Source: an uncultured Pelagibacteraceae bacterium (GTDB lineage: Bacteria > Pseudomonadota > Alphaproteobacteria > Pelagibacterales > Pelagibacteraceae). From it: 64,000 nt of DNA. Each line of letters opens with the position of its first letter. Positions within the stretch are counted from its first letter, which is position 1. A model generated the notes under the pieces. That model saw nothing but the letters and a program-made list of their open reading frames with translations, was not told the origin of the DNA and did not search any database. Positions 7,105 through 41,212 of the stretch are shown piece by piece. The stretch is taken from NCBI GenBank assembly GCA_902573755.1, contig CACGLD010000001.1, forward strand, positions 103,241-167,240, given 5' to 3'. The translations under genes were made by a program, and so were the position numbers.

Positions 7105-7114
7105 ACTTAAGTAT

Positions 7115-7963
7115 TCAATCTCTTGTTGCAATATAAACACCTATAGAAGTAATTAGAAATCCAATTAAATCTAAGCTAGTTAAACTTTCATTTAAGAAAA
7201 GCCATGCCATAAAAGCAGATGTTGCTGGAATTAAAAAAAATATAGAAACAGTTTTGCTAGCTGAATTATTTTTTATTAAAAACATCAATATTGTAAATGC
7301 ACCAAATGATACTAAAAATATTTGATGGCTCATTGCAATGATAAACGTTTGCGAGAAATCAATGTACGGATCAACAAACAAAATAATTATTAATGAATGA
7401 AAAAAGCATCCACCGAGAGCTTGATTCATATTGCTCACAGACAACGGTAAGTTGTTACTTAATTTTTTTTGCCATAAAGTTGAAAATGTAATTGCTAATA
7501 AAGCTATTATTGTTGCGATCAATCCTGTTACCGGTATTTTAGAACCAACATCAAAACCTAATACAAGTCCTGCTCCAGCAAATCCTAACAAAACACCTAT
7601 CCATTGTTTTGTAGATACTTTCTCATTTAAAATTGGTCCACTTAATGCATTTGTAAGAATTGGTTGAAGGGTTACAATTAACGCTGCAATTGCCGTAGGC
7701 ATACCTATTGAAATTGAGTAAAATACACCCCCAAGATAAAAACCATGAAATAAAACACCACTTAAAAAAGATTCAAAAAAATTTCTTTTGCATACTAGAA
7801 TTTTTTGTTTTGAATAAATTGAAAATAAAAAAAAACCGAAAGCAACTAATGCAAATCTAAAAGCTAGAGCAGCAAATGGATCACTGTTATCTATGATAGG
7901 TTTGGTTGTTATGAAAGCTGAAGACCATAGAAGTATAAATATGAAAGGAAATATTTTAATCAT
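7115..7963 (-). CDS. DMT (EamA) family transporter
   Basis: 282 aa, ~10 hydrophobic segments, EamA repeat features. Confidence 0.88.
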   Translation of the reverse strand: MIKIFPFIFILLWSSAFITTKPIIDNSDPFAALAFRFALVAFGFFLFSIYSKQKILVCKRNFFESFLSGVLFHGFYLGGVFYSISIGMPTAIAALIVTLQPILTNALSGPILNEKVSTKQWIGVLLGFAGAGLVLGFDVGSKIPVTGLIATIIALLAITFSTLWQKKLSNNLPLSVSNMNQALGGCFFHSLIIILFVDPYIDFSQTFIIAMSHQIFLVSFGAFTILMFLIKNNSASKTVSIFFLIPATSAFMAWLFLNESLTSLDLIGFLITSIGVYIATRD

Positions 7964-8066
7964 CTTGTTTAATAAACAAATAAATCAAATAAAATCAAAC
8001 AAATCGGTACCTATTATGAACAAATTAGAAGTGGAAATGAAATACCAAATCACCTAAGGTTCACCA

Positions 8067-8453
8067 ATGAATTTTAAATTGTTTAGAATTTTAACAGTTA
8101 TACTGTCTTTCTTCTTATTGACAGGCTTTGTGCCCATTCTTTCATTTGTTGGTCCAGGTGTTACCGCTCTTACATCAGGTAATATCTATAAAGCGAGTGC
8201 ACAATTTATAGTTAATCAACGTATAGAAAAAGAAACTGGAAAAAATTCTTTAGCTTTGATCAAAGAAACTTTAGTTGAAGAAAAAGATATAAAAATTAAA
8301 AAAAATTCTTTTGATGAGGACTTAAGACAATTAGTTGAAACAAGAATAAAAATGACCAGACAAAAACTAGATAATCAAAATTTACAAAAACTACTTAAGA
8401 AACGAATTGAGGTTACTAGATCGATACTTGATTTAAATAATATTACTCAATAA
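8067..8453 (+). CDS. Hypothetical protein with N-terminal signal/TM segment
   Basis: 128 aa ORF; hydrophobic N-terminus then charged helical region. Confidence 0.7.
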   Translation: MNFKLFRILTVILSFFLLTGFVPILSFVGPGVTALTSGNIYKASAQFIVNQRIEKETGKNSLALIKETLVEEKDIKIKKNSFDEDLRQLVETRIKMTRQKLDNQNLQKLLKKRIEVTRSILDLNNITQ

Positions 8454-8883
8454 TATTTAGATATATCAAATCTTTTTGATCAGTTTCATTACACCACATT
8501 TCATAGCTTTCACAAACTCTCCACAAATGATCAAAAGCTCGTTGTGAAATTTCTAATGGAAAATGACTTTTAGTATAATAAAGCTTTGGTATCTTCATTA
8601 AAAATTTTATCATAGAATCTTTTTGTAGTTCTAAAAGTCTTAAAGTTTCTTCATTGATTTTCTTTTTAGTTATTTTATCAATAAATTTATTATTCTTAAG
8701 TTCTAAAAACCATTTATCATGAAATTCTCCAGAACTTAGAATGTCAAATTCCTTAGTAGTCATGAAAATTTCAAAAGCTTGTATATTATTGATTTCAGGA
8801 TTTTGTTTTTTAATTTCTATTATATTTGAATAAACAAATTCAGCAGCTCTCAACACATATGGCTTTTCAGTCTTGATAGACAT
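8443..8883 (-). CDS. Hypothetical protein
   Basis: 146 aa ORF, convergent 11-nt overlap with preceding CDS. Confidence 0.65.
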   Translation of the reverse strand: MSIKTEKPYVLRAAEFVYSNIIEIKKQNPEINNIQAFEIFMTTKEFDILSSGEFHDKWFLELKNNKFIDKITKKKINEETLRLLELQKDSMIKFLMKIPKLYYTKSHFPLEISQRAFDHLWRVCESYEMWCNETDQKDLIYLNIIE

Positions 8884-8886
8884 AAA

Positions 8887-9633
8887 CTAGTTTTTATGTT
8901 TAACCATAGCTGAATGAGCCAAAATTAAATTAGGATCTAAGAAAACTTTTGAGGATTTAACATTTTTAAATGATTTAAATGCAAAAATTGCAATAGGGAG
9001 CTCTGTACAACCTAAAATGATTTTTTTACACTTCATTTTAATTAAGGAGTCAATTGCAGGTTTAATTGCTTTTGCTGCAGCCTTTACATTACCCATTTTA
9101 ACTAATTTAATTGCTTTATTAACTGACATTTTTTGTATTTTTTGAGATGGCTCAATTAATTGATAATCTTTATCAAAAAATTTTTTGTAAACTCCAGTTT
9201 TAAGAGTGCCCTCGGTTGCTAAGAGACCAACTTTGGAGTTTCTCTTGCATTTTTTTTTTGTAAATTTGAAAACTTCTTTTGGCATATTGATTATTGGAAT
9301 ATTAATTTTATTCTGCAAATCATCGAACCAATAATGAGCTGTATTACAAGGTATAACTATAAATTTACATTTATTCTTTTCCAAAAGTTTACAACCATTA
9401 AGCAAACTCTTTAAAACTTTGTTATATTTTGCTCTACTTATTTTATTTGTAGATTTGTTTGAAAGGTTTTTAGTTTGAGAGCCAATAGATTCAGGTCTAC
9501 CAGGAATATTTGATTTATTATAAAGTATAAATAATGGATACTCTTGATCTATTTTTCCTCTATTTAAAACTGCAAGTTTGTTGCAAAAATCAAGACCTGC
9601 TTGAGTTCCCATTCCACCTAAAATTCCAATCAT
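8887..9633 (-). CDS. Aspartate/glutamate racemase family protein
   Basis: MIGILGGMGTQAGLDF, VIPCNTAHYWFDDL and ILGCTELP motifs. Confidence 0.9.
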   Translation of the reverse strand: MIGILGGMGTQAGLDFCNKLAVLNRGKIDQEYPLFILYNKSNIPGRPESIGSQTKNLSNKSTNKISRAKYNKVLKSLLNGCKLLEKNKCKFIVIPCNTAHYWFDDLQNKINIPIINMPKEVFKFTKKKCKRNSKVGLLATEGTLKTGVYKKFFDKDYQLIEPSQKIQKMSVNKAIKLVKMGNVKAAAKAIKPAIDSLIKMKCKKIILGCTELPIAIFAFKSFKNVKSSKVFLDPNLILAHSAMVKHKN

Positions 9634-9710
9634 AATTTTGATTAATTTATTAATTTTTTATTTTAAATCTATAATTAATAATTGTGTTTAAAGATTGTTA
9701 TTAAATAAGG

Positions 9711-9761
9711 TATTGGCTGAATAATAAATTTTTTAAAGTTAAATAAATTTTTCAGCCAATA
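9711..9761 (-). terminator. Long-loop stem-loop downstream of cold-shock gene
   Basis: 11-bp perfect inverted repeat TATTGGCTGAA (9711-9721) / TTCAGCCAATA (9751-9761), just 3' of the minus-strand csp stop. Confidence 0.5.
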
Positions 9762-9773
9762 GGAAGTGTGAAA

Positions 9774-9980
9774 TTATGCAGTTTTTAAGTTAACTGCTGA
9801 AGGACCTTTAGGACCATCTTCAACATCGAAAGTCAAAGCTTGACCCTCATCTAAACCGTTCATACCAGCATCTCTTACTGCTGAAACATGTACAAACACA
9901 TCTTTTTCTTTATCTTCTCTTTCAATAAAACCAAAACCTTTGGTTGGATTGAACCACTTTACTTTACCTTGTAGACTCAT
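9774..9980 (-). CDS. cspA: Cold-shock domain protein
   Basis: 68 aa; [22 protein letters not shown]1 motif, VFVHVSAV. Confidence 0.96.
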
Positions 9981-10097
9981 ATTTATCTTCTTACTTTTTG
10001 TTATGTTTAATTATTACTTATAATTAAGTAATAATGGCTTTCTTTAGATTTTATTGGGTTTTGTCAACAAAATAGAACAACAATTAAAAATAATTTT

Positions 10098-10565
10098 TTA
10101 ATTATCGTCAATAAACATACTTAAATAAACAGAATTGATGTCTTCTTTATAGTGCGCAAAAGGTTCGCATACGGTGAAACCAGTTTTTTTGAAAAGTTTT
10201 CTTGCGGGTATAAAAAAATCACCTGCCCCTGTTTCGATACTTAATCTTTTTATTTTTAGCTTTTTAGCTTCATCGATTAAATGATTGATTACATGGATCC
10301 CTTTACCTTGTTTTCTAAAATCATCGTGAATTCTTATAGATTTAAATTCTCCATGTTCTTTATCTAAAAATTTTAAAGCACCACAACCGATCAATTTTTC
10401 ATCATCCCACAAACTCCAAAACTTAATTGATGAAACTTTTAATCCTGGAATATCAAGGACGTGAGCACTTCCCTCTGGAGAAGCAGCTCTAAGCTCAACA
10501 AAATGCTTAGCTAGAAGCTCATTAACTTCTGGATTATCAAAATTACCTTCTATTGATTTTAACAT
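10098..10565 (-). CDS. GNAT family N-acetyltransferase
   Basis: GCGALKFLDKEHGEFKSIRIHDDFRKQGKGIHVINHLIDEAK. Confidence 0.9.
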   Translation of the reverse strand: MLKSIEGNFDNPEVNELLAKHFVELRAASPEGSAHVLDIPGLKVSSIKFWSLWDDEKLIGCGALKFLDKEHGEFKSIRIHDDFRKQGKGIHVINHLIDEAKKLKIKRLSIETGAGDFFIPARKLFKKTGFTVCEPFAHYKEDINSVYLSMFIDDN

Positions 10566-11612
10566 TTATACTAAAGTTGTGATATGACCCATTTTTCTTT
10601 TTTCTTTTATATCTTTTTTCAAATAATCAAAGAAAAATTCATTGTCATTAAACTTTTGCATATTTCTATAATGAGTAATTTGATCACCAAGCAAATTCAT
10701 CATTTTAGCATTAGATATTTTTTTTAAAGGAATTTGTTCTAAACCACAAACAGCTCTTACGTGATTTTCAAATTGACTCACATTAAAAGCATTTATTGTT
10801 AGATGTCCTGAATTATGTACTCTTGGAGCAATCTCATTAACATAAAGATTATCATTTCTATCAATAAAAAATTCTACACACAAAGTTCCAACATATTTAA
10901 GTTCTTCAGCTATTAGCATTGCCCAATCTTTAGATTGATTAAAAATTTTTTCATTAATTTCAGCAGGTATTTTTGAATATTTTAAAATTTGATCTTCATG
11001 AGTGTTTTCTATTGGTTCATAAATTTCATATTTATTATTACTAAATCTTGTGATTATAATTGAAATCTCTTTTTTTAATTTTACAAATTTTTCAAGAATA
11101 TATCCTTTTGAAAAATCAATATTCAATGAATTAAGATCATCACCTGATTTAATTGGATATTGACCTTTACCATCATAACCAAGTGTTGTTGTTTTTAATA
11201 TTCCTGGCAAAAAATCTTCTAAAGCATCTATGTCAGATTTTTTTTCGATTGAAACATATCTGGTTGTTCTAATATTTAATTTATTAACAAAATCTTTTTC
11301 AGCCAATCGATGTTGAATTAATCTGTTGACAGAGGGCTTTGGCAAAACAGGTTTAAATTTGTTTATTTCATTTAATGTTTCATAAGGAATATTTTCAAAT
11401 TCATAAGTGACCAAATCAACCTGATTTATAAATTCTGATATCTTTTCTTTATTATCATAATTTCCATTAACAAATTGATTACAAAAATTTTGTGCTGGCG
11501 CATCTATGTCATCACAAAAAACAACAGTTTTAACATTTAATTTTTTAGCCGCAATTGCAAGCATACTTCCAAGTTGACCACCCCCAATGATACCAAGAGT
11601 AATTTCTGACAT
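10566..11612 (-). CDS. purK: 5-(carboxyamino)imidazole ribonucleotide synthase
   Basis: ATP-grasp; IIGGGQLGSMLAIAAK, VNEIAPRVHNSGHLTINA. Confidence 0.96.
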   Translation of the reverse strand: MSEITLGIIGGGQLGSMLAIAAKKLNVKTVVFCDDIDAPAQNFCNQFVNGNYDNKEKISEFINQVDLVTYEFENIPYETLNEINKFKPVLPKPSVNRLIQHRLAEKDFVNKLNIRTTRYVSIEKKSDIDALEDFLPGILKTTTLGYDGKGQYPIKSGDDLNSLNIDFSKGYILEKFVKLKKEISIIITRFSNNKYEIYEPIENTHEDQILKYSKIPAEINEKIFNQSKDWAMLIAEELKYVGTLCVEFFIDRNDNLYVNEIAPRVHNSGHLTINAFNVSQFENHVRAVCGLEQIPLKKISNAKMMNLLGDQITHYRNMQKFNDNEFFFDYLKKDIKEKRKMGHITTLV

Positions 11613-16300: not shown

Positions 16301-17659
16301 TTAGCCTTTTACAACTTCTCTTGTATTTGCGTTGAAAGACTCTTTGAATGGAATATCCACCACAACAGCATCTACAGGTGTTCCTGGAGTTTCTGAATAT
16401 TGTTCTGGTAGATGAACTTTATATTTAGTTCCCACTTTTCCTTTTGGAAAACCATTTGCATTTAACGTTCCATCGAAAGGAACATATCCCATTGCAATAT
16501 TTGTTTTCTTTTCAGGGTGCCACCATGGTGATGTTAAAAATCCTACTGGATCACCACCACTTTCTGGGGAAACTAACCAAAAGTCAGGTGCATAATTATC
16601 AATAGGTTTACCACCTAATTCCATACCAACTAATTGAAGTTTGTAAGGTTTTTTTCCTGCTTTTAATTCTTCTTTCATTTTTTCTAGTGCAGCCTTACCA
16701 ACATAATCAGCAGTTTTGTTCCATTCTCCTTTTCCAGACAAAGAAACTTGATAACCTAAATTACATTGGAACGGATTGTGTTGCTGATCCATGTCTTGTC
16801 CCCATGAAAGAATACCCGCTTGAATTCTTCTATGGTGAGCAGGAGCAATAACCATCAAGCTATGTTTTTTTCCAGCAGCAAGCACAGCATTCCACATATC
16901 CTCAGCATACAAAGTTGAATTTCTTAAATAAATCTCATAACCAGCTTCACCTGAGAAACCAGACTGAGAAATAACAACATCTCTTCCTCCAACTTTAGCA
17001 GCTGCTAAGCCGTAGAAAGGCATATTATCAAAATCAACTTGATCGCCACATAGATCTTTCATTAATGCTTTTGATTTAGGTCCTTGTATTTGAACTGGAC
17101 TGACATCAATTTCTTCAATAGTACAATTAAATCTTCCATCAGCATTAACACCTTGTAAATACATTCCAATATCAGAGTCTGATAATGAAAACCAAAACTC
17201 ATCATCTGAAATTCTTAAAAGAATTGGATCATTTAAAACTCCACCATAAGCGTTACATAAAATAACGTATCTTGCTCTCATTGGAGAAATTTTTGTTGCA
17301 TCTCTAGTGATTACATAGTCCGTAAATTTTTCTGCATCTGGACCCTTTACTCTTATTTGTCTCTCAACAGCAACGTTCCACATTGTTACGTGGTTTACGA
17401 TCGCATCGTATTCAACCATAGCTCCACCATCTTCAGGTTTTACATAACCTCTTGGATGATAAATTCGATTGTATACAGTTGCTCTCCAACAACCTGCCTG
17501 CATTGATAAATGCCAATAAGGTGATTTTCTTACCCTTGTTGAAATTAGCATTTCAACTTTTGTTGGCCCACTTTGTCTTAAGTTGTATGGTACTTCTCTA
17601 TCTGATTGATCAACAGAAGTAACATGTTTTAGTTTAGTATAGTCAAATTCATTAGACAT
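16301..17659 (-). CDS. dmdA: Dimethylsulfoniopropionate demethylase
   Basis: 452 aa GcvT-fold; SQSGFSGEAGYEIYLR, QAGCWRATVYNRIYHPRGY; close to recognised SAR11 DmdA. Confidence 0.95.
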   Translation of the reverse strand: MSNEFDYTKLKHVTSVDQSDREVPYNLRQSGPTKVEMLISTRVRKSPYWHLSMQAGCWRATVYNRIYHPRGYVKPEDGGAMVEYDAIVNHVTMWNVAVERQIRVKGPDAEKFTDYVITRDATKISPMRARYVILCNAYGGVLNDPILLRISDDEFWFSLSDSDIGMYLQGVNADGRFNCTIEEIDVSPVQIQGPKSKALMKDLCGDQVDFDNMPFYGLAAAKVGGRDVVISQSGFSGEAGYEIYLRNSTLYAEDMWNAVLAAGKKHSLMVIAPAHHRRIQAGILSWGQDMDQQHNPFQCNLGYQVSLSGKGEWNKTADYVGKAALEKMKEELKAGKKPYKLQLVGMELGGKPIDNYAPDFWLVSPESGGDPVGFLTSPWWHPEKKTNIAMGYVPFDGTLNANGFPKGKVGTKYKVHLPEQYSETPGTPVDAVVVDIPFKESFNANTREVVKG

Positions 17660-18380
17660 AACTATTCTCCTTCAACCACTTGTTAGTTTCCTTCAAGCCG
17701 CCGAATGTATAAATGTGGAAGTTATCAGTGTGCGATTTAACTTTCCCAATTAAATCATTAGGGTCTTTAGGTTTCAATAAATCTAATGCCTTAGTAAAAT
17801 TAGATTTAAGAAAGTTTAAGGAATTTTTTGCCCCTACAATATTAGCAAATTTAATTAAGCTAGATATTTTTAATGGCCCAGTAATTCCCACATGCACTGG
17901 TACGCTTTGCTTAGAAATAAAATCTATAATAGGCTGAGGATCAAGTAACCACTGCGTTACAATATAATCAGCATAAGGCTTTTTATCTATCATAGCTTTT
18001 TCTAATTCTGAATCGGATATATCAGGACTCCCCTCGGGATGTCCAGCAATTCCTATTTTCATTTTTTCAAAATAACCTGTCTCTAAAAGTTGAAAGGAAC
18101 TATCAAATTTTCCTGCTGGCTCTCTTCCGCCTCCAATAATCAAGGCTTGCTTTACCCCTCCATCTTTGCATCTAGAAACATAATCTTTAAGTTCGTTTTC
18201 ATCCTGCATTGATCTTGCTGGAAAGTGAGGTACCGGATTAAAACCTTTTTTTACTAGCTCTATGGCTTTTTCAGCTGTCTCTTTATAGTCTCCGCCAGGC
18301 AGCATTGTAATGTAAACGTCACTAACAGCAGGAACTGTTTCGATGTCAGTTTTAGGACCTATTTCCAAAGAAAAATTCAT
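17652..18380 (-). CDS. Methylenetetrahydrofolate reductase family protein
   Basis: 242 aa MetF-like TIM barrel; 8-nt overlap with dmdA. Confidence 0.85.
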   Translation of the reverse strand: MNFSLEIGPKTDIETVPAVSDVYITMLPGGDYKETAEKAIELVKKGFNPVPHFPARSMQDENELKDYVSRCKDGGVKQALIIGGGREPAGKFDSSFQLLETGYFEKMKIGIAGHPEGSPDISDSELEKAMIDKKPYADYIVTQWLLDPQPIIDFISKQSVPVHVGITGPLKISSLIKFANIVGAKNSLNFLKSNFTKALDLLKPKDPNDLIGKVKSHTDNFHIYTFGGLKETNKWLKENSYV

Positions 18381-18438: not shown

Positions 18439-19326
18439 TTACTTCTTCAGTTGGCCTCTGTGCTTTTGAATTCTTTGTCCGTACTGCTGAGTTACTCTAT
18501 CAAAGATAATTGCTAGAGCCACAATAGCCAAACCATTCATCATTCCAAGGGCTAAATATTGGTTAGAAATGGCCTGTAAAATAGGAACTCCCAATCCTTT
18601 TACTCCTATCATTGAAGCAATTACTACCATTGCTAGAGCCATCATAATTGTCTGATTGATCCCTGCAAAAATGGTTGGTAGAGAAAGTGGTATTTGAACT
18701 GACCTTAATTTTTGCATTGGGGTTGCCCCAAAAGCTTCGCTAGCCTCTAAAGTCTCTTTATCAACTTCTCGAATTCCAAGGTTTGTTAATCTAACTATTG
18801 GAGGTAGAGCATAAATACAAACTGCGAGCAGTCCTGGAACTTTACCAATACCTAGAAGCATAATTATAGGTATAAGATATACAAAACTTGGAATAGTTTG
18901 CATCATATCTAAAACAGGTAAAATTGCTTTTTCTGCTCTTGCAGATTTTGACATGACAATTCCAATTGGAATTCCAACTACAATACAAACTAATGTTGAA
19001 ACAGAAATTATAGCAACTGTAGCCATACAATTTTTCCACATTCCGAAGTAGCCAATTACCAAGAAACAAACCACTGTACCAATAACAAGTTTAACACTTC
19101 TTGATCCAATCCAAGCTAATAAAGCAAATACACCGATTACTAAAGGCCAAGGACTATTTACTAATAATTTTTCTAACCAAATTAAAAAATGTAAAAGTGG
19201 ATCAAAAAAACCTTCAATACCATCACCATACGCTCTAGAAAATTCTTTGAAACTAGAATCAATTCCTTTTTTAAGCTCTCTAAGAGCCGTTCTATCCATT
19301 ACAGGAATTTTATTAAAGAAGTCCAT
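18439..19326 (-). CDS. Glycine betaine/proline-type ABC transporter permease
   Basis: ProW-like; MDFFNKIPVMDRTALRELKKGI, EAFGATPMQKLRSVQIPLSLPTIFAGINQTIM. Confidence 0.93.
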   Translation of the reverse strand: MDFFNKIPVMDRTALRELKKGIDSSFKEFSRAYGDGIEGFFDPLLHFLIWLEKLLVNSPWPLVIGVFALLAWIGSRSVKLVIGTVVCFLVIGYFGMWKNCMATVAIISVSTLVCIVVGIPIGIVMSKSARAEKAILPVLDMMQTIPSFVYLIPIIMLLGIGKVPGLLAVCIYALPPIVRLTNLGIREVDKETLEASEAFGATPMQKLRSVQIPLSLPTIFAGINQTIMMALAMVVIASMIGVKGLGVPILQAISNQYLALGMMNGLAIVALAIIFDRVTQQYGQRIQKHRGQLKK

Positions 19327-19338
19327 AATTTTTATTTA

Positions 19339-19364
19339 ATCAAACCCGCCTAGGCGGGTTTGAT
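19339..19364. repeat. 26-bp perfect palindrome / stem-loop between binding-protein and permease genes
   Basis: ATCAAACCCGCCTAGGCGGGTTTGAT; 12-bp arms. Confidence 0.85.
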
Positions 19365-19375
19365 AATATTTTTAA

Positions 19376-20386
19376 TTAAAGTGCTTTTTTGATTTTTTTT
19401 GCAGCATCACTTGAAACCCATTTACTCCAAACACTTTCTTGTGTTTTTAGGAATTCAATTGCAGCATCAGCACCTTCAGCTTGGTTTTCACCCATCCAAA
19501 CTAACATACCGTTCATAACTGGGCCTGGATACGTTCTTTTCTTAAAGTATTCCATACCAGCGTTTCCAGCTGTTTTTTTGAAATTATCAGTTACGATTGT
19601 GTAAACTTCAGATTTTGTCCATGAAGTTTTTTTAGGGTTAGCACATTCTTGCTCTGGTAAAACAATACAACCATCCCAGTTGTCTTTACCACCCCATTCA
19701 CCCATATCCACAGCTCTCATATCATATTTACCAATAATAGCTGTTGGTGACCAATAATAACCAAACCAGTTTTCTCCTCGCTCAGCAGCTTTAGCAATTG
19801 ATCCGTCAAGTCCTGCAGCAGAACCTGTTTCAACAATAGCCCAACCTTTAGCTTCCATGTCCCAAGCTCTAAAATGGTTTCTGTTACTTAATTCACAGTT
19901 CCAACCTGGAGGACAAATGTGGAAACCACCTTTTGATGGATCCTCTGGGTGAGGAAACAAATCCGGTCTTGCTAAAATAGCTTCAGCAGTTGTTAACTCA
20001 GGATGTTTTTTAAGTGTGTGAGGTAATACCCACCAACCTTCACCCAAACCAGTAATTGGCGCTTTATTAAGTGAGTGCATTTTTCCTTCATCAACAGCTT
20101 TATTCAAAGCGATGATAGCAGCGTTAGCCCAAAACTCAGGAGCAACATCTGGCTCACCTTTTTCTTGCATAGATGTAAACGTAGGCATTGTAGCACCAGG
20201 TACTAATTCTACTGAACATCCATAACCTTCTTCTAATATGATCTTATCAACCTCAGCCATAAAGTTTGCTGAAGCCCAGTTCATATTAGCAATCGTTATA
20301 TTTCCACAAGCTGCATTTGCAACACTTCCAAAAGAAGTAAGACCAAACACAACAGCTAGTGAAAGAAGTATTCTTTTAATCTTCAT
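19376..20386 (-). CDS. Glycine betaine/proline (or DMSP)-type ABC transporter substrate-binding protein
   Basis: Signal peptide MKIKRILLSLAVVFGLTSFGSVANA; OpuAC-like. Internal ATG at 20386 (RBS GGGAGA) preferred to track start 20410. Confidence 0.92.
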   Translation of the reverse strand: MKIKRILLSLAVVFGLTSFGSVANAACGNITIANMNWASANFMAEVDKIILEEGYGCSVELVPGATMPTFTSMQEKGEPDVAPEFWANAAIIALNKAVDEGKMHSLNKAPITGLGEGWWVLPHTLKKHPELTTAEAILARPDLFPHPEDPSKGGFHICPPGWNCELSNRNHFRAWDMEAKGWAIVETGSAAGLDGSIAKAAERGENWFGYYWSPTAIIGKYDMRAVDMGEWGGKDNWDGCIVLPEQECANPKKTSWTKSEVYTIVTDNFKKTAGNAGMEYFKKRTYPGPVMNGMLVWMGENQAEGADAAIEFLKTQESVWSKWVSSDAAKKIKKAL

Positions 20387-20430
20387 TATTTCTCCCAACA
20401 TTTGATTCATTTAAAAGTTAAATTGAACAT

Positions 20431-20657: not shown

Positions 20658-21845
20658 ATGAATTTAAATAAAAAATTATCAGACATCTTAGATCCCAATA
20701 AAATAGAAGTTGTTAAAAATCCTATAGAGAAAGCTCATGGATTACCTAATGAATGCTATTTGAATAATGATTATTTAGAGTTTGAGAAAGAAAAAATATT
20801 TAAAAATAATTGGACGATGATTGGGGTTGCAAGTTCTGTACCAAATCCAGGCGATGCAAAACCTTTTAATCTTTTAGGAATACCAATACTAATAGTTAGA
20901 AACAAAGAGAATGAAGTAAAAGTTTTTCACAATGTTTGTAGTCATAGAGGTTTCAAATTAGTTGATCAGGAATGTAAATTAAAAAATGTAATAAGATGCC
21001 CCTATCATTCCTGGTCCTATGATTTTAATGGAAAATTAACTGTTACTCCACACATAGGAGGACTAGGAAAAAATGAGGTTGAAGGGTTCGATAAAAACAA
21101 GAGTAACTTAAAAGAAATTAAATCAAATATTTGGATGGATTTAATTTTTATTAATATTAATTCTAATGCAAAACCATTTGAAGATTTTATTAAACCTCTA
21201 GAGGATAGATGGTCTAAGTTTATTTCTAAAAAAGATCAAAAATTAATAAGACATTCGACTGATAACGGATATTTTAATATGACTGTAAATAGTAATTGGA
21301 AATTTGCAATTGAGAATTATTGTGAAAGCTATCATTTGCCATGGATACATCCAGAACTAAATAAAGTTTCAAATATTTCGGATCACTATCATATTGAAGA
21401 TGAGAATTTTAATTTTTCAGGACAAGGAAGTAATAAATATTCACAACAGTTTGATGGAAATATTAAATTTAAATGCTTTCCTAACTGGCCAACTGAACTT
21501 TCTGAAAAATCTGAATATGTATCATTATATCCAAACGTAATGTTAGGAATACATATTGATCATTTCTATGCATTTTGGTTAGAGCCAATTTCTAACAATC
21601 AAACTAAAGAACATTTTGAATTATATTATGTTGGAGACGAAAGTGCCTCCAGTGATGAGTTTAAAGATATAAGAGAAAAAAATTTTGCATTTTGGCAAGA
21701 AGTTATGAATGAAGATGTAACTGCAATAGAAGGAATGCAAAACGGGCGAAATTCCCCAGCTTACAATGGTGGGAATTTTTCACCTGTAATGGATACTCCT
21801 ACTTTGATGTTTCATAAGTGGGTTGCAACCAACTTAACAAAATGA
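20658..21845 (+). CDS. Rieske (2Fe-2S) aromatic-ring-hydroxylating-type oxygenase alpha subunit, glycine-betaine demethylase-like
   Basis: CSHRGFKL...CPYHSWSYD Rieske motif; ENYCESYHLPWIHPEL Fe site; AGGAGG RBS. Confidence 0.88.
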   Translation: MNLNKKLSDILDPNKIEVVKNPIEKAHGLPNECYLNNDYLEFEKEKIFKNNWTMIGVASSVPNPGDAKPFNLLGIPILIVRNKENEVKVFHNVCSHRGFKLVDQECKLKNVIRCPYHSWSYDFNGKLTVTPHIGGLGKNEVEGFDKNKSNLKEIKSNIWMDLIFININSNAKPFEDFIKPLEDRWSKFISKKDQKLIRHSTDNGYFNMTVNSNWKFAIENYCESYHLPWIHPELNKVSNISDHYHIEDENFNFSGQGSNKYSQQFDGNIKFKCFPNWPTELSEKSEYVSLYPNVMLGIHIDHFYAFWLEPISNNQTKEHFELYYVGDESASSDEFKDIREKNFAFWQEVMNEDVTAIEGMQNGRNSPAYNGGNFSPVMDTPTLMFHKWVATNLTK

Positions 21846-21856
21846 GAGGGTAAATT

Positions 21857-22897
21857 ATGAAAAAAGATCTAATTACAAGATTAAATGAAGGTCCAATAAT
21901 GTGTGCAGAAGGCTATCTTTTTGCAATGGAAAGAAGAGGTTATCTTTCAGCAGGTCCATTTGTTCCAGAAGTGGTTTTAGAACATCCAGAGGTAGTAACT
22001 CAATTACATCGAGAATTTATTAGAGCTGGTTCAGATGTTGTTCAGGCATTTACTTATTATGGTCATAGAGAAAAGTTGAGAATAATTGGCAAAGAACACT
22101 TGTTAGAACCAATGCAAAAAGGTGCTCTTAAAATTGCAAAAGATGCTGCAGCTGAGTTTAAAGATTTAGATCTTATGGTTTGTGGAGATGTGGCAAACAC
22201 CAATGTATTTGATCCAGGTGATGCCAATACTCATAAACAGTGTCAACAAATGTATGAAGAACAAGTAGCTTGGGCAAAAGAAGCTGGTGTTGATTTTGTT
22301 ATTGCTGAAACAATAAGTTGGACTGACGAAATGAAAATTGCATTAAAAGCAATTAAAGATGCTGGACTTATTGCAGTTTGTAATTTTGCAATCCCTAGAG
22401 GGGATAAAACTAGAGAAGGTCATAGTGCTGAGGATGCATGTAAGATGATGGAAGATCTAGGCGCTGATGTAGTTGGTTTAAATTGTTATAGAGGACCAGA
22501 GATGACAATGAAACTTTTAAAAAAAGTTAGAGACAAAGTTTCATGTCATGTATCAGGGCTTCCAGTTCCTTACAGAACTACAGAGGAAGAACCTGGTTTC
22601 TTGAATATCACAGATCATGGATGTGACTGTATTCCAGGTGGAAATGCATTCCCAGTTGCTTTAGATAATTTATTTTGTAACAGATTTGAAATGGCCGAGT
22701 TTGCAAAAGATTGTGTAAAAAATAAAATAAATTTTATTGGTATTTGTTGTGGAGCTGAAGCTCACCATGTTAGAGAAATGTCAGTTGCGATTGGTAAAAA
22801 ACCAATTTCAATGAAATATATGCCAGACATGAGCAAACATTTTCATCATGGAACAGACAAATCTCTTAAAAAAGTAAATAAGGAAATTAAATATTAA
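21857..22897 (+). CDS. bhmT: Betaine--homocysteine S-methyltransferase
   Basis: GADVVGLNCYRGP, FIGICCGAEAHHVREM zinc site. Confidence 0.93.
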   Translation: MKKDLITRLNEGPIMCAEGYLFAMERRGYLSAGPFVPEVVLEHPEVVTQLHREFIRAGSDVVQAFTYYGHREKLRIIGKEHLLEPMQKGALKIAKDAAAEFKDLDLMVCGDVANTNVFDPGDANTHKQCQQMYEEQVAWAKEAGVDFVIAETISWTDEMKIALKAIKDAGLIAVCNFAIPRGDKTREGHSAEDACKMMEDLGADVVGLNCYRGPEMTMKLLKKVRDKVSCHVSGLPVPYRTTEEEPGFLNITDHGCDCIPGGNAFPVALDNLFCNRFEMAEFAKDCVKNKINFIGICCGAEAHHVREMSVAIGKKPISMKYMPDMSKHFHHGTDKSLKKVNKEIKY

Positions 22898-25302
22898 TGG
22901 AAAAACATGCCAAAGTTGTAATCATAGGTGGTGGTGTAGTTGGATGTTCTATTCTTTACCATTTATCAAAATTTGGATTAAAAGATTGTATTTTACTTGA
23001 AAGAAATGAACTAACATCAGGTTCTTCATGGCATGCTGCCGGAAATGTTCATGTAATTTCTTCTGACCCAAACATCTCTCGGATGATGGCTTACACAATT
23101 GGTTTATATAAAGAGATTGAAAAAGAATCTGGTCATTCAACAGGATTTAAACCTAGTGGAGGTTTTTATTTAGCTTCAAATGAAGTGTGGGCTGATTATT
23201 TAAAGAGAGAAAGATCAAAAGCGAGATACATGGGGCTTGATCAAGAGTTTATTTCTCTAGAAGAAGTAAAAAAGAAACATCCGTTAATTGATCCATCTCG
23301 ATATTTGTTAGCTTTATGGGATCCTATTGATGGTGAAGTTGATCCATCAGGAGTTACTTATGCTTTTGCAAAAGCCGCAAAAGTTCATGGTGGAAAATAT
23401 TATACTCACACAGTTGTTAAGGATACGAAACAAAAAGAGGATGGAACTTGGGATGTCTTTACTGAAAAAGGAAACATCAATGCTGAAATAGTAATTAATG
23501 CAGGAGGACTTTGGGCAAGAGAAGTTGGTCAACTAGCTGGGCTTAATCTTCCAGTTCAACCAATGGAGCATCATTATTTGATCACTGAACCTATTCCAGA
23601 AATTGAAGCAATGGGTGACCAAAGATTACCAATTGGAACAGATTTTGAGGGAAATATTTACTTTAGACAAGAAGGAAAAGGAATGTTGCTTGGAACTTAT
23701 GAGCCAAAATCAACTCCTTGGAAAGTTGAAGGCACACCAATGAATTTTGGACATGAGTTACTTGAGCCAAAGTTAGATAACATTGAAGATAGATTGGCAA
23801 TTGGGTTTGAGAGAATGCCAGCATTAGAGCGGGCAGGAATAAAAAATATAGTTAATGGACCTTTTACTTTTGGTCCAGATGGAAGCCCTCTTATTGGTCC
23901 AGTACCAGGAATGAAAAATTATTGGGTTGCTGTTGGTGTTATGGCTGGATTTTGCCAAGGCGGTGGTGTTGGAAAATGTATAGCAGAATGGATTATTGAC
24001 GGAGAACCATCAATTGACGTTTGGGCAATGGATGTTGCAAGATTTGGAGATTATGCATCACCTCAATATGGAACAATAAAATCCTCAGAAAATTATGAGC
24101 GAAGATTTATTATGACTTTTCCAAACGAAACTTTACCAAAGGGAAGAAAACAAAAAACTACTGCACTGTATGATCGTTTTGTAAATCAAGGTGCTGTTAT
24201 GGGAGATAGCTTTGGATTAGAAAATGTTTTGTGGTTTGCAAATAATAAAGAAGATGCTCATGAAGAACCTACTATTAAAAGATCAAGATCACATGACTAT
24301 GTTTCAAAAGAAGTTATTAATGTAAGAGAAAATGTTGGTTTAATCGAAGTTGCCAACTTTTCAAAACACGAATTCAAAGGTCCTGATGCTAGAAAATTTT
24401 TAGATCATATAATGGCTGGAAGACTTCCAAAACCAGGAAGAATATCTTTATCTCCAATGTTGTCGTATAGAGGAAAATTATGTGGTGATTTAACGGTTGC
24501 TTGTTTAGATGAAAATGAATTTATGGTATTTGGTTCTGGAGCTGCTCAAGAAATGCATAGACGTTGGTTTGAGAGTCACATAGATAAATTTAATTTAAGT
24601 TATTCTAATAGATCTGATGAGTATCATGGTTTGTCTATTGCAGGACCAAATTCAAGGAAAGTCTTGGAAAAAATTGTAAGAGATGATGTTTCAAATGAAA
24701 AATTTAAGTTTAGAGATTCTAGAAGAATGTTTGTTGGTGGAGTTCCAGCTATAATAAATAGAATTTCATTTACTGGCGAACTCGGTTATGAAATTTATGT
24801 AGCACCTCACTATCAACTAAAACTTTATGAAGAATTAATGGAAGCTGGAAAAGAATTTAATATTAAACCTTTTGGTGGAAGAGCATTAATGTCAATGAGG
24901 TTGGAGAAAAATTGGGGAGCTTGGACTTTAGATTATAGACCTGATTTTACTGCAAAAGAGACAGGCTTAGATGCTTTTATAAATTGGGACAAAGAGTTTA
25001 TTGGTAAAGAAAGTGCACAAAAGGAAAATTCTTCAAATAAACTCGTACCATTAATTGTTGAAACAAATGAAATTGATGTAACAAATAATGAAGCCGTCTT
25101 GAATGGAGATCAAAGTATTGGCTATGTAACTTCAGGTGGGTTTGCTCATTTTGTAAACAAAAGTGTAGCGTTTACTTTTGTTGATCAAAAAAAAATTAAA
25201 TCTGAAAATAAAATTCAAGTAGAGATAAATGGAGATTTATTTAATTGTTCAATTATTAAAGAACCACTTTACGATCCAAGTGGTCAAAAAATGAGAAGCT
25301 AA
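22897..25302 (+). CDS. Dimethylglycine/sarcosine dehydrogenase-like flavoprotein (DAO + GcvT domains), copy 1
   Basis: 801 aa; VVIIGGGVVGCSILYHLSKFG, SGSSWHAAGNVH; C-terminal GcvT. Confidence 0.92.
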   Translation: MEKHAKVVIIGGGVVGCSILYHLSKFGLKDCILLERNELTSGSSWHAAGNVHVISSDPNISRMMAYTIGLYKEIEKESGHSTGFKPSGGFYLASNEVWADYLKRERSKARYMGLDQEFISLEEVKKKHPLIDPSRYLLALWDPIDGEVDPSGVTYAFAKAAKVHGGKYYTHTVVKDTKQKEDGTWDVFTEKGNINAEIVINAGGLWAREVGQLAGLNLPVQPMEHHYLITEPIPEIEAMGDQRLPIGTDFEGNIYFRQEGKGMLLGTYEPKSTPWKVEGTPMNFGHELLEPKLDNIEDRLAIGFERMPALERAGIKNIVNGPFTFGPDGSPLIGPVPGMKNYWVAVGVMAGFCQGGGVGKCIAEWIIDGEPSIDVWAMDVARFGDYASPQYGTIKSSENYERRFIMTFPNETLPKGRKQKTTALYDRFVNQGAVMGDSFGLENVLWFANNKEDAHEEPTIKRSRSHDYVSKEVINVRENVGLIEVANFSKHEFKGPDARKFLDHIMAGRLPKPGRISLSPMLSYRGKLCGDLTVACLDENEFMVFGSGAAQEMHRRWFESHIDKFNLSYSNRSDEYHGLSIAGPNSRKVLEKIVRDDVSNEKFKFRDSRRMFVGGVPAIINRISFTGELGYEIYVAPHYQLKLYEELMEAGKEFNIKPFGGRALMSMRLEKNWGAWTLDYRPDFTAKETGLDAFINWDKEFIGKESAQKENSSNKLVPLIVETNEIDVTNNEAVLNGDQSIGYVTSGGFAHFVNKSVAFTFVDQKKIKSENKIQVEINGDLFNCSIIKEPLYDPSGQKMRS

Positions 25303-25928
25303 TGGCTCAAAAAGACGTAGGAAACAAAATTCCAATTTATAAACTTAAAACCACAGATGAAGTTATGAAGTACTACGATGAGTGGGGAGACAAAGATAAA
25401 TATAATAAAGACATGGTTGATTGGAACTATACTGGACCCAAAGAAACCGCTGAAATATTTAATAAATATGAGAAAAATAAAGATACTTTAATTTTTGATG
25501 CTGGATGTGGAACAGGTTTAGTGGGATTAGAGCTTAAAAAATATAGTTTTAAAAATTTTCATGGAGCAGATTTATCTCAAACTTTATTAGACACTGTACC
25601 AAAAGATCTTTATCAAAAATTAGTAAAGGTTGATTTAAATAAATCAATAGAAGTTGAGGACAACTTTTATGGTGGAGTTATGTGTGTTGGAACATTTACT
25701 TTTGGGCATGTAAAACCAAATGCATTAGATGAATTTATAAGAATAACAAAACCAGGTGGTTTAATTTGTTTCACAATTAATGAAGGAATTCATGAAGAGT
25801 ATGGTTTTGATAAAAAAATTGATATACTCAAAGATAGCAAGAAGTGGGAAGAAGTAGAATTTTTTAAATCCGACTATATTGCAAGCAAAGATGTTAACGC
25901 ATGGTTAGGTTTGTATAGAGTATTATGA
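25302..25928 (+). CDS. Class I SAM-dependent methyltransferase
   Basis: LIFDAGCGTGLVGLELKKY. Confidence 0.88.
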   Translation: MAQKDVGNKIPIYKLKTTDEVMKYYDEWGDKDKYNKDMVDWNYTGPKETAEIFNKYEKNKDTLIFDAGCGTGLVGLELKKYSFKNFHGADLSQTLLDTVPKDLYQKLVKVDLNKSIEVEDNFYGGVMCVGTFTFGHVKPNALDEFIRITKPGGLICFTINEGIHEEYGFDKKIDILKDSKKWEEVEFFKSDYIASKDVNAWLGLYRVL

Positions 25929-27160
25929 GGTTTAGTAGAAAAATAGCTCCTGAGATAAAACCAAGACAAAATTTTATTACTAAAAAAAGATTAAGAGAAG
26001 ATGAAATTGATTTTGATAAGTTAAGATCATATCGTTTAGATAGAGTTAGAAAAGAATTAGTAAAAAACAATTTAGAAGCTTGTATTCTATTTGATCCAGT
26101 GAATGTTCGTTATGCTTTAGATACTGTAAACATGAGTGTCTATAACATGCATAACTTAACAAGATATTGTTTTGTACCGGTCAATGGACCAACCATTCTT
26201 TATGAGTATTTTAATTGTGAAATATTATCGAAGCATTTAAATCTAATTGACGAAATTAGACCTGCAATCACATGGGATTATTTTAGCAATGGAGATCAAG
26301 CAAATTTACAATTATCAAAATGGATAAATGAAGTTAAAGATTTATCAAAAAATTATTTTAAAACTAAAAAAATTGCAATCGATGTTTTAAATGGTCCTGC
26401 GGTTACAGCTTTAAATAAAGAAGGAATTGAAGTTGTAGATGCAAAATTGATTTTAGAACAAGCAAGAGTAATAAAATCACCTGATGAATTGACTTGTATG
26501 AAAGCTGCAATAGAAGTTGCAGAAAAAGGTGTATCAAAAATGAGATCAGATCTTAAGCCAGGAATGACTGAAGATGAATTGTGGTCAATTTTACATAAAA
26601 CGAATATTGAAAATGGAGGTGAGTGGATTGAGTGTAGGATTTTATCGTCTGGTGAAAGAACAAATCCATGGATGCAAGAGAGTAGTAATAAAGTTATGCA
26701 ACAAGGAGAAATTGTTGCTTTTGATACAGATATGGTTGGTCCCTATGGATACTGTGCTGACATATCAAGAGCCTTTGTAGTTGGACATAAATTTAATGAT
26801 GAGCAAAAAAAACTATATTCAATGGCTAGAAATCAAATTGAACATAATTTTAGATTAATAAAACCAGGAATGAGTTTTAAAGAATTTATAAAAAAATCTT
26901 GGGTTTTGCCTGATGAGTATTATGGAAATAGGTATTCATGTATGGTTCATGGAATTGGGTTGTGTGATGAGTGGCCTCAAATAAGATATCCAACTGATGG
27001 TGGAGAAGAAAGTGGAACTTTTGAGAAGAACATGACAATTACACTTGAGAGTTATATTGGTAAAGTTGGTGGTAAAGAAGGTGTAAAACTTGAACAACAG
27101 TATCTTGTAGGTGAAAATGGACTTGAATTAATGTCCCATCATCCGTTAGAAGATATTTAA
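25925..27160 (+). CDS. M24 metallopeptidase-fold protein, DddP-like (candidate DMSP lyase)
   Basis: HKTNIENGGEWIECRILSSGERTNPWMQES, FDTDMVGPYGYCADISRAF, MVHGIGLCDEWPQIRYP. Confidence 0.75.
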   Translation: MRFSRKIAPEIKPRQNFITKKRLREDEIDFDKLRSYRLDRVRKELVKNNLEACILFDPVNVRYALDTVNMSVYNMHNLTRYCFVPVNGPTILYEYFNCEILSKHLNLIDEIRPAITWDYFSNGDQANLQLSKWINEVKDLSKNYFKTKKIAIDVLNGPAVTALNKEGIEVVDAKLILEQARVIKSPDELTCMKAAIEVAEKGVSKMRSDLKPGMTEDELWSILHKTNIENGGEWIECRILSSGERTNPWMQESSNKVMQQGEIVAFDTDMVGPYGYCADISRAFVVGHKFNDEQKKLYSMARNQIEHNFRLIKPGMSFKEFIKKSWVLPDEYYGNRYSCMVHGIGLCDEWPQIRYPTDGGEESGTFEKNMTITLESYIGKVGGKEGVKLEQQYLVGENGLELMSHHPLEDI

Positions 27161-27570
27161 TGAAAATTATTTTAGTAATGGGTTTACCTGGAGCTGGTAA
27201 AACAACTCTAGCAAACGAAATGGCACCACTCTTAAATGCAAAAAGATTAAATGCAGACGAAGTAAGAAAAGCTGCAAATGATTGGGATTTTTCAGAAGAA
27301 GGAAGGGTAAGACAAGCAAAAAGAATGGCTGAAGCAGCTTTAAAATTAAAAGGAGAAGGTAATTATGTAATCGCAGATTTCATTGCACCAACCCCTGAAG
27401 CAAGAAGCTTATTTCCAGCAGATTTTAGAGTGTGGGTCGACACTATTAAAAAGGGAAGGTTTGAAGACACTAATCAAATGTTTGTTAATCCTAAGAATTT
27501 TGATTTTCATGTAACAACTCAGGATGCAAAAAATTGGGCACCAAAAATAATAAAGGAGATAAAAAAATGA
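27160..27570 (+). CDS. APS kinase-like P-loop kinase
   Basis: 136 aa; ILVMGLPGAGKTTLANEMAPLL Walker A. Confidence 0.8.
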   Translation: MKIILVMGLPGAGKTTLANEMAPLLNAKRLNADEVRKAANDWDFSEEGRVRQAKRMAEAALKLKGEGNYVIADFIAPTPEARSLFPADFRVWVDTIKKGRFEDTNQMFVNPKNFDFHVTTQDAKNWAPKIIKEIKK

Positions 27571-27941
27571 CATATAAATGGGATAACAAAAAACCAACAG
27601 CGCAAATGCTAGGCAGATGGCAACCTTTTCACGATGGACATTATACTTTGTTTAAAGAAATTATTAAAAAAACAGGACAAGTTTGTATTCAAATTAGAGA
27701 TGTGCAAGGTGTAGACGATAATCCTTTTGATTTCGAAACAGTAAAAAAAAACATTGAAGATAGATTAAATCCTGAATTTGAAGGACAATTTAAAATAATG
27801 TTAGTACCTAATATTACAAATATTTGTTATGGTAGAGGAGTTGGATATAAGATTGAGGAAATAGTTTTGGATGAAGAAACTCAAAAAATATCAGCTACTA
27901 AGATAAGAGCAAAAATGAGAGAAGAGGGAAAGTTAAAATAA
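27567..27941 (+). CDS. Cytidylyltransferase-like nucleotidylyltransferase
   Basis: GRWQPFHDGHYTLFKEII (HxGH-type) and ISATKIRAKM; ATG at 27567 overlaps previous stop (ATGA); track start 27534 is an upstream TTG. Confidence 0.82.
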   Translation: MTYKWDNKKPTAQMLGRWQPFHDGHYTLFKEIIKKTGQVCIQIRDVQGVDDNPFDFETVKKNIEDRLNPEFEGQFKIMLVPNITNICYGRGVGYKIEEIVLDEETQKISATKIRAKMREEGKLK

Positions 27942-27947
27942 ACTTAA

Positions 27948-28799
27948 ATGAACGATAGACTTAAGACTATTGTAGATTTAGAAAAATATCCAATATACGA
28001 TTTAAATTCACCAATAATTAAAAATCTTATTAAAAAATGTAAAGAAGAACTTGATCAATATAGTTGTTCAACAATTCCAAATTTTATTTTACCTAAATCA
28101 CTTAAGGTAATGAATTCTGAGTTAGAAAAACAATTAGATGAAGTTTATATGTCTAAAGAAAGTATAAATGCATACTTGTATGCGAAGGACGATCCTTCAT
28201 TACCAAAAGATCATCCAAAAAGAACTTTTATGAATAGATATAATGGATATTTAAATTCAGATTGTTTTCCAAAAGACTCTGAAATGAAATATCTTTACGA
28301 AACTGAAGAACTTTTAAAATTTGTATCTGCTTGTTTAGGCGTTTCACCTATTTACAGATGGGCGGATCCTTTAGCATGTCATGCGTACAATGTTATGAAA
28401 CCAGATGGGGTACTCCCATGGCATTTTGATAGTTGTGAATTTACACTCAGTTTAATGATACAAAAACCTGAGAAGGGAGGAATATTTGAGTACTGTCCAA
28501 ATATTAGAGAACCAGGAAATGAAAATTTCGAAGAAGTTCAAAAAGTTATAGCAGGAGATAGAACTAGAGTGAGACAATTGAAATTAGAGCCAGGAGATTT
28601 ACAAATATTTAAAGGAAGATTTACTTTGCATAGAGTAACAAAAGTTGAAGGTCAAAAATCAAGATATATGTGTATTCCTGCTTATGTTTTGGATCCATGG
28701 AGAGTTAATACACCAGAACATTCCAAAGCTATTTATGGCAAAGTTTTACCAATTCATATAGAAAGAAATCAGGCTAGATCTGACGGATTAACTGATTAA
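27948..28799 (+). CDS. 2-oxoglutarate/Fe(II)-dependent oxygenase, HalD/BesD-like
   Basis: PWHFDSCEFTLSLMIQKPEKGGIFEYCPNIR with intact HxD, distal H in FTLHRVTKVEG. Confidence 0.75.
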   Translation: MNDRLKTIVDLEKYPIYDLNSPIIKNLIKKCKEELDQYSCSTIPNFILPKSLKVMNSELEKQLDEVYMSKESINAYLYAKDDPSLPKDHPKRTFMNRYNGYLNSDCFPKDSEMKYLYETEELLKFVSACLGVSPIYRWADPLACHAYNVMKPDGVLPWHFDSCEFTLSLMIQKPEKGGIFEYCPNIREPGNENFEEVQKVIAGDRTRVRQLKLEPGDLQIFKGRFTLHRVTKVEGQKSRYMCIPAYVLDPWRVNTPEHSKAIYGKVLPIHIERNQARSDGLTD

Positions 28800-29579
28800 A
28801 TGACAAGCAATATAAAAATTAAAAAAAATAACAACGAAGTTTCATCAATTATTATTGATGAACCAAAAACTTATAACTCTTTATCATTCAAAAATCTTTC
28901 AGATTTATTAAAGACATTAAAAAAATTAGATGCTGATAAAAAAGTTAAAGTAATAATATTAGAGGGTGCCGGTAAAGGATTTAGTGCAGGTCATAATTTA
29001 AAAGAAGTTAGAGGTTTAAAAAAGAAAGATAAATATTTAAAATTATTTAATCTTTGTTCAAAAGTAATGCTTCAGATTGTTGAAGGTAGGAAACCTGTAA
29101 TTGCTAAAGTTCATGGAGCAGCATTTGCAGCTGGATGTCAATTGGTTGCAAGTTGTGATTTAGCTTATAGTACTAAAGACGCATTATTCGCTACTCCTGG
29201 TGTCAATATTGGTTTGTTTTGTAGTACACCTATGGTGGCTGTCAGTAGAAAGATAAATCGAAAACCTATGATGAAAATGCTTTTAACTGGAGAACCTATC
29301 AATGCAAATTATGCAAAAGAAATAGGGTTGATAAATGATAATTTTTCAAAAGCCAAATTAAACAAAGAAGTGTTAAAAGTAGCAAATAAAATTGCTTCTA
29401 AATCTAATTTAACAATAAAAATTGGAAAGCAAGCTTTTTACAAACAATTAGAAATGCCATTAAGTAAAGCTTACGCTTATACAAGTAAAATGATGACCCT
29501 TAATATGATGGCAATGGATGCAAAAGAAGGAATTTCTGCTTTCCTTGAAAAAAGGAAACCTAAATGGAAAAATAAATAA
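28800..29579 (+). CDS. Enoyl-CoA hydratase/isomerase family protein (ECHDC3-like)
   Basis: FSAGHNLKEV, HGAAFAAGCQLVASCDLAYS. Confidence 0.9.
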   Translation: MTSNIKIKKNNNEVSSIIIDEPKTYNSLSFKNLSDLLKTLKKLDADKKVKVIILEGAGKGFSAGHNLKEVRGLKKKDKYLKLFNLCSKVMLQIVEGRKPVIAKVHGAAFAAGCQLVASCDLAYSTKDALFATPGVNIGLFCSTPMVAVSRKINRKPMMKMLLTGEPINANYAKEIGLINDNFSKAKLNKEVLKVANKIASKSNLTIKIGKQAFYKQLEMPLSKAYAYTSKMMTLNMMAMDAKEGISAFLEKRKPKWKNK

Positions 29580-40210: not shown

Positions 40211-41212
40211 GTGTCCGATCAATTCAAAGCAATAGTCCTTAACCAAGAAGGCGAAAATTTTTCGCGAGAAGTAAAGTCTTTAGATAAAAGTTTTTTAAAA
40301 CATGGGGATGTAACAGTAAAAGTAGAATATTCAGATTTAAATTTTAAAGATGGAATGATTCTAAAAAATGGAGGAAGATTAGTAAAAGAATATCCTCATA
40401 TTCCAGGAATTGATTTTTCAGGAAAAGTTATTGGAAGTGATAATCCTAAATTTAAAGAAGGTGACGAAGTAATACTTACTGGCTTTAGAGTAGGGGAAGT
40501 TTTTTTTGGAGGGTTTTCTCAAATTGCAAAAGTAAGTGGAGATTTTTTAGTTAAAAAACCAGATAGCTTGACAAGTAAACAAGCAATGATTTTAGGAACA
40601 GCAGGTTTAACTTCTTTAATGAGTGCTTTTGCTATTCAAGCAAGAGAAAGTATTTTGTTAGGAGAAAAAGTTAACGATGTTTTAGTAACTGGTGCAACAG
40701 GTGGGGTTGGTAGTGTAGCTGTGATGGCTTTAACTAAATTAGGATATAATGTAACTGCAGTAACTGGAAAAGACTCTAAATCAGATTATTTAAAATCATT
40801 AGGAGCTAAAAATATTATAAATAGGGCTGAATTTGATAAAGACCCAAGACCAATAGATAAGGGTTTATGGGATGGAGTAGTTGATACTGTTGGTGGAAAA
40901 ATTTTAGCAAATGCAATTGCTCAAACAAAATCAAATGGAATAATTGCAGTTTGTGGAAATGCAAACAGCAATGAGCTTAATACAAATTTACTTCCTTTTA
41001 TGTTAAGAGGTATAAAAGTTTGGGGAATGGACTCTGCTAATTGCAGTATTAAAAGAAGGGAGTTTATTTGGGCAGAGGCTCCAAAATTATTAGATTTTGA
41101 CTTACTAGAAAAATCAGTTTTAACAGTAAATTTGGAAGAGTTGATTGAAACTTATCCAAAAATTTTAAAAGGTGAAATTTCTGGAAGAGTATTAGTTGAT
41201 TTAAATAAATAA
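40211..41212 (+). CDS. acuI: Acryloyl-CoA reductase / YhdH-type MDR oxidoreductase
   Basis: SDLNFKDGMILKNGG, VTGATGGVGSVAVMALTKLGYNVTAVTGK; GTG start. Confidence 0.87.
   Translation: MSDQFKAIVLNQEGENFSREVKSLDKSFLKHGDVTVKVEYSDLNFKDGMILKNGGRLVKEYPHIPGIDFSGKVIGSDNPKFKEGDEVILTGFRVGEVFFGGFSQIAKVSGDFLVKKPDSLTSKQAMILGTAGLTSLMSAFAIQARESILLGEKVNDVLVTGATGGVGSVAVMALTKLGYNVTAVTGKDSKSDYLKSLGAKNIINRAEFDKDPRPIDKGLWDGVVDTVGGKILANAIAQTKSNGIIAVCGNANSNELNTNLLPFMLRGIKVWGMDSANCSIKRREFIWAEAPKLLDFDLLEKSVLTVNLEELIETYPKILKGEISGRVLVDLNK

Follow-up and report, generated by a model that had tools for sequence, protein, structure and literature searches.

The DddP-like M24 gene of this Pelagibacteraceae contig encodes a protein that, judged by its sequence, belongs to a sister subfamily of DddP rather than to DddP proper, with its own Pelagibacteraceae clade. 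With moderate confidence, we propose that it is a two-metal M24B ('pita-bread') enzyme with DddP-like action that takes part in betaine-type osmolyte catabolism by cleaving a betaine-type zwitterion. As for the substrate, we favour a betaine or the oxygenase product of one, on an evenly balanced judgement, while DMSP is possible with a clearly lower probability. The original prediction had read the gene as a candidate DMSP lyase and had named another betaine-like substrate as its alternative; it is this alternative that fits the gene context better, i.e., a quaternary-amine operon with Rieske and HalD-like neighbours, though context alone names no substrate for the M24 enzyme. Throughout, the window refers to the whole 64,000-nucleotide stretch of DNA that was analysed.

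The predicted M24 reading frame proved to be real (see Table 1), and every motif originally quoted from it was found in its translation. Among Pfam families, PF00557 (M24) matched the protein with 117 bits, while the match to the creatinase N-domain was marginal. The best phmmer matches among solved structures were those of DddP (4rzy, 4s00, 4s01 and 4b28; E 6e-85 to 5e-82, residues 29-409), and the next structure was the prolidase-like 2zsg (E 1e-19). With DddP so far ahead of prolidase, the resemblance is not due to chance, which bears out the earlier statement that the protein resembles DddP rather than a generic Xaa-Pro peptidase. That the window comes from a Pelagibacteraceae (SAR11) genome is borne out by 80 named Pelagibacteraceae loci that match at 88-100%. 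An AlphaFold model built with 26 close orthologues as input had a mean pLDDT of 56, and the values fell below 50 in several stretches of the active site.

Table 1 Features of the M24 locus, with window coordinates.
Feature	Coordinates	Strand	Remarks
ProW/OpuA-type glycine betaine transporter permease and putative substrate-binding protein	18439..20410	-	Divergent, upstream
Rieske oxygenase alpha subunit, GbcA/CntA-like	20658..21845	+	Quaternary-ammonium type
Betaine-homocysteine methyltransferase (BHMT)	21857..22897	+	Human-BHMT-like
Dimethylglycine dehydrogenase-like protein (DMGDH)	22897..25302	+	FAD and GcvT domains
Class I SAM methyltransferase	25302..25928	+	4-bp overlap with M24 start
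DddP-like M24B metalloenzyme (subject gene)	25925..27160	+	411 aa, uninterrupted ORF, ATG start
Tyr73 codon	26141..26143	+	Position of RlDddP Trp95, by alignment
Asp348 codon	26966..26968	+	RdDddP/RlDddP Asp377, proposed catalytic base, by alignment
Small P-loop kinase, APS-kinase-like	27160..27570	+	Directly downstream of M24; stop/start overlap of 1 base
Small nucleotidyltransferase-like protein	27534..27941	+	GRWQPFHDGH motif; first in-frame ATG near 27568
HalD-family Fe(II)/2OG oxygenase	27948..28799	+	HxD (hydroxylase-type) motif
Enoyl-CoA hydratase family protein	28800..29579	+	End of conserved block

We found that the protein falls outside DddP by both model score and phylogeny. Specifically, it scored 352 bits (E 4e-105) against the curated DddP equivalog NF043017, for which the cut-off is 600; members of the DddP clade score 627-788 bits on the same model. 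The window clade was split from the DddP clade in each of three maximum-likelihood trees (support 99/95, 97/93 and 99/97), where we relied on splits and not on the root because the outgroup (the genome's other M24 proteins) was very long and itself split. Forcing the Pelagibacter clade and the DddP clade together was rejected (AU p 7.8e-5), also when family f32 was added (AU p 5.8e-4), although these p values are somewhat optimistic as the groups were named with a first tree already in view. The tree sampling does not extend to the DddP sequences of fungi and Oceanimonas. The identification as DddP was thus overturned by phylogenetic placement. Low identity does not by itself exclude lyase activity, given that a fungal DddP only 32% identical to RdDddP reportedly produced DMS in E. 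coli (PMC4108388). Hence DddP membership fails as tested, while DMSP lyase chemistry is possible for a protein of this sequence.

The active-site residues present a more ambiguous picture. The six dinuclear metal ligands, defined for RdDddP (PMC4108388), are all kept in the window protein (RlDddP D295, D297, D307, H371, E406 and E421 correspond to D267, D269, D279, H342, E375 and E390), as are the proposed catalytic residues Y366 and D377 (Y337 and D348). All of these are invariant in 26 Pelagibacteraceae orthologues. The ligands and the catalytic Asp named in the original prediction were indeed present, with no loss of the Asp in the alignment. However, these residues fail to discriminate DddP, the metal ligands and Tyr366 being invariant or nearly so across the wider family. 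In a DddP-like alignment of 73 rows, Tyr366 was found in every row, W277 and the metal ligands were conserved family-wide (D297 in all but one row), and Asp377 was retained by most sister clades; clades without Asp377 still have Tyr366, W277 and the metal ligands. The ligands and Tyr366 are therefore weak evidence for DddP membership. As a separate observation, the DddP-like M24 proteins of five loci (L161, L163, L160, L158 and L164) retain the metal ligands and Tyr366 while Gly replaces the catalytic Asp377. Position 378 is Glu in all DddP-like rows, and the window protein reads HGIGLCDEW in place of the Xaa-Pro peptidase motif HGxGLxxHE, in which M24 peptidases carry the catalytic His at this position; the one canonical M24 outgroup has His within the corresponding motif.

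Two features of the alignment did discriminate: an N-terminal E-x-GPT motif, and the residue at the position of the DMSP-sulfur-binding Trp of DddP, which we take to be number 95. The motif was present in all full-length DddP-clade rows and absent from the window protein and from every non-DddP clade among the 73 rows; an N-terminal loop-helix extension of DddP has been described (PMC4108388). At the second position, where a Trp acts together with a Tyr in contacting the DMSP sulfur in DddP (reviewed in PMC5395565), the conserved Trp was matched neither by the window protein, which has Tyr73, nor by L136 and family f32, which have Phe.

The neighbourhood of the gene points to quaternary amines. 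The nearest relative of the Rieske protein was carnitine monooxygenase CntA among solved structures and GbcA among models. Each of the 46 Pelagibacteraceae loci with full flanks (46/46) carries, together with the M24 gene, those for the Rieske protein, BHMT, DMGDH, the methyltransferase, the kinase, the HalD-like protein and the enoyl-CoA hydratase, and also encodes a transporter protein of the glycine betaine type. The HalD-like gene was absent at some orthologue loci (L136 and L137), and in the distant family f32 (L140), too, the methyltransferase gene adjoins that of the M24 protein. In the HxG/D motif of the facial triad, the window HalD-like protein aligns an Asp with the Gly of the halogenase, making it hydroxylase-type. 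We also observed that the kinase lies directly 3' of the M24 gene in 79 of 80 loci; in the window, the kinase and the small nucleotidyltransferase with the GRWQPFHDGH motif together occupy 27160-27941. Elsewhere in Pelagibacterales, a bona fide DddP directly adjoins BHMT and DMGDH (family f2; locus L139 of genome G040, 6162-11095); this DddP has 65% identity to RlDddP, and a near-identical copy in G048 scores 788 bits. Such a context consequently does not exclude DMSP.

Relatives of the M24 protein beyond SAR11 were found in Pseudomonas, Paraburkholderia, Caballeronia, Rhizobium, Sinorhizobium and others, with 43-49% identity among the matches listed, in plasmid records. In Rhizobium, Paraburkholderia and Caballeronia, the DddP-like M24 gene is accompanied by genes for a Rieske oxygenase and a reductase. 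The Rieske protein of Rhizobium anhuiense matches 3vca and 4qup (E ~1e-101), which we take to be stachydrine demethylases, and the same M24/Rieske locus has genes for 4-hydroxyproline epimerase and for a glycine betaine transporter nearby. In the roseobacter Parasedimentitalea, the M24 relative sits between a DMGDH-like gene and a gene of the trimethylamine-methyltransferase family. The gene immediately before the M24 relative of Pseudomonas MPC6 encodes a protein with 52% identity to the window HalD-like oxygenase. Among 385 alphaproteobacterial genomes, six HalD-like/M24 pairs no more than 250 bp apart were found in five genomes besides that of the window, compared with about 0.1 expected by chance (a rough estimate assuming uniform placement). 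These Rieske and HalD-like neighbourhoods thus show members of the DddP-like family repeatedly encoded together with quaternary-amine oxygenases, for which a DMSP lyase has no need. A literature search for betaine or stachydrine pathways that involve an M24 enzyme returned nothing on point.

Several of these loci merit mention in their own right. The recurrence of a HalD-family oxygenase beside a DddP-like M24 gene (L158, L164 and L210) marks a candidate unrecognised two-enzyme pathway, and a LysR-type or other regulator is found on the opposite strand upstream of the HalD-like/M24 genes in L158, L164 and Pseudomonas MPC6. In Rhizobium sp. AB2/73 (L216, 10245-18765), a DddP-like/Rieske cassette adjoins a formaldehyde oxidation set and ETF genes, as well as a protein annotated as a DMSP lyase.

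Most probably, the window enzyme works like DddP, using two metals and Asp348 as the base on a carboxylated onium zwitterion. In such a mechanism, the metal pair held by D267, D269, D279, H342, E375 and E390 would hold the carboxylate of the substrate, Tyr337 and the aromatic Tyr73 would embrace the onium group, and Asp348 would take the alpha proton, upon which the onium group would leave. The substrate would likely be a nitrogen betaine, or the product made from it by the Rieske or Fe/2OG oxygenase of the operon, rather than DMSP.

One alternative is that the protein is a genuine, divergent lyase of DMSP (or DMSOP), i.e., the SAR11 counterpart of DddP that replaces DddK in these lineages; we regard this as possible but doubtful. 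The original prediction had set it within a DMSP gene set of DddP, DmdA and AcuI spanning about 25 kb. That set falls, because the genome's true DmdA (582 bits) lies on a separate contig (C4:25968-27071) and AcuI is below its equivalog cut-off, with the M24 protein itself outside the DddP clade. The window ORF at 16301-17659 (-), taken for dmdA, encodes a GcvT-like protein, longer by about 80 aa, that scored 234 bits against a DmdA equivalog cut-off of 410 and was rejected as DmdA. It is of some interest in itself: at 16301-18380 (-) this DmdA-like GcvT protein of 452 aa overlaps a MetF-like gene (called by sequence) and is easily mis-annotated as DmdA; in its position beside such a gene it is like the GcvT-like aminomethyltransferases of unknown function described from SAR11 (PMC3160333). 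The claim of acuI at 40211-41212 stood at the level of the broad YhdH/acrylyl-CoA reductase model (396 bits; cut-off 297) but not at that of the AcuI equivalog (340 bits; cut-off 440). An AcuI/YhdH-family gene 13 kb from the M24 gene nonetheless speaks for a DMSP lyase, as do the conservation of all published metal and catalytic residues and the bona fide DddP beside BHMT-DMGDH in another SAR11 family.

A further argument for this alternative comes from DddK. Across 399 Pelagibacter genomes, the M24 gene was present in 116 (~29%) and DddK, whose query identity was confirmed against 5tfz/6a53, in 26 (~7%), with both together in none (Fisher p 1.7e-4). This exclusion fits functional replacement but may also reflect nothing more than different subclades, and with genomes that are related and incomplete it is suggestive only. 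In the genome of the window, which is only 69% complete, no cupin DMSP lyase of PF16867 was found; DddK, for which this model is unproven, was searched separately. Against a DMSP lyase stand the score under the curated DddP cut-off, the position outside the clade (AU p 8e-5), the missing N-terminal motif and the change of Trp95 to Tyr, together with closer relatives that adjoin N-betaine demethylases in plant- and soil-associated bacteria.

We consider it improbable that the protein is instead a metal-dependent C-N hydrolase (not a lyase) of an osmolyte, feeding sarcosine or dimethylglycine to DMGDH. Both creatinase and ectoine hydrolase do belong to the M24 superfamily, there is a weak match to DoeA models (41.6 bits) and the neighbours are amine demethylation genes; however, the DddP match is far stronger than that to DoeA, and the Asp at 377 and the complete set of metal ligands speak for the DddP type. 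Creatinase is not known to need the metals. Finally, an ordinary Xaa-Pro dipeptidase or aminopeptidase, as the M24 fold, a PepQ model match of 74 bits and the automatic annotation of relatives as 'Xaa-Pro peptidase family protein' might suggest, is highly improbable given a prolidase similarity ~65 orders of magnitude weaker than that to DddP, the altered HGxGLxxHE motif, the operon context and the lack of Val-Pro activity in RlDddP (PMC5395565).

Returning to the cleavage of a betaine-type zwitterion as the preferred reading, we tentatively suggest, leaning slightly to the side of doubt, that an enzyme widespread in SAR11, which ocean surveys with loose thresholds are likely to count as DddP, instead cleaves a nitrogen betaine on which an oxygenase has first acted. 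This would be an unrecognised step of betaine catabolism that plant-associated bacteria have as well. Estimates of DMS production draw on counts of dddP, and SAR11 is the dominant group among ocean heterotrophs. Published surveys have used dddP cut-offs of 1e-30 (PMC8520302) and 1e-70 (PMC5395565), and the E-value of the window protein against the curated DddP model suggests that its gene would pass both. If the enzyme is not a DMSP lyase, the DMS potential of SAR11 has been overcounted; if it is, most of the SAR11 lyase potential has been assigned to the wrong gene. Pending an assay, the M24 gene is best left out of DMSP lyase counts.

Compared with known systems, the window protein shares with DddP (RlDddP 4rzy, RdDddP 4b28 and the f2 DddP) an M24B fold predicted by homology, the six metal ligands, Tyr366, Asp377, the HGxGxCDEW motif and a similar length. 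It differs in having 35% identity and a separate clade, in lacking the N-terminal GPT motif, in carrying Tyr (or Phe) for Trp95, and in its quaternary-amine operon, which also encodes a methyltransferase and oxygenases. DddK, the characterised SAR11 DMSP lyase, comes from the same genus but is an unrelated cupin never found in the same genome (399 sampled). The HalD-like/M24 pairs (Pseudomonas sp. MPC6, G219, G075, G088, G223 and G349) involve the same two protein families as in the window, although the genes are directly adjacent there and three genes apart here, and the M24 members of G219 and G075 lack the Asp377 that the window protein has. The uncharacterised DddP-like M24 proteins of rhizobia and Burkholderiaceae likewise have Asp377, no N-terminal motif, a Rieske partner and an amine or proline catabolic context. 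By contrast, they show 42-45% identity to the window protein by alignment, lie on a different branch and retain Trp95, and their Rieske partner, as tested for R. anhuiense, belongs to the Stc2 type, whereas that of the window is of the GbcA/CntA type.
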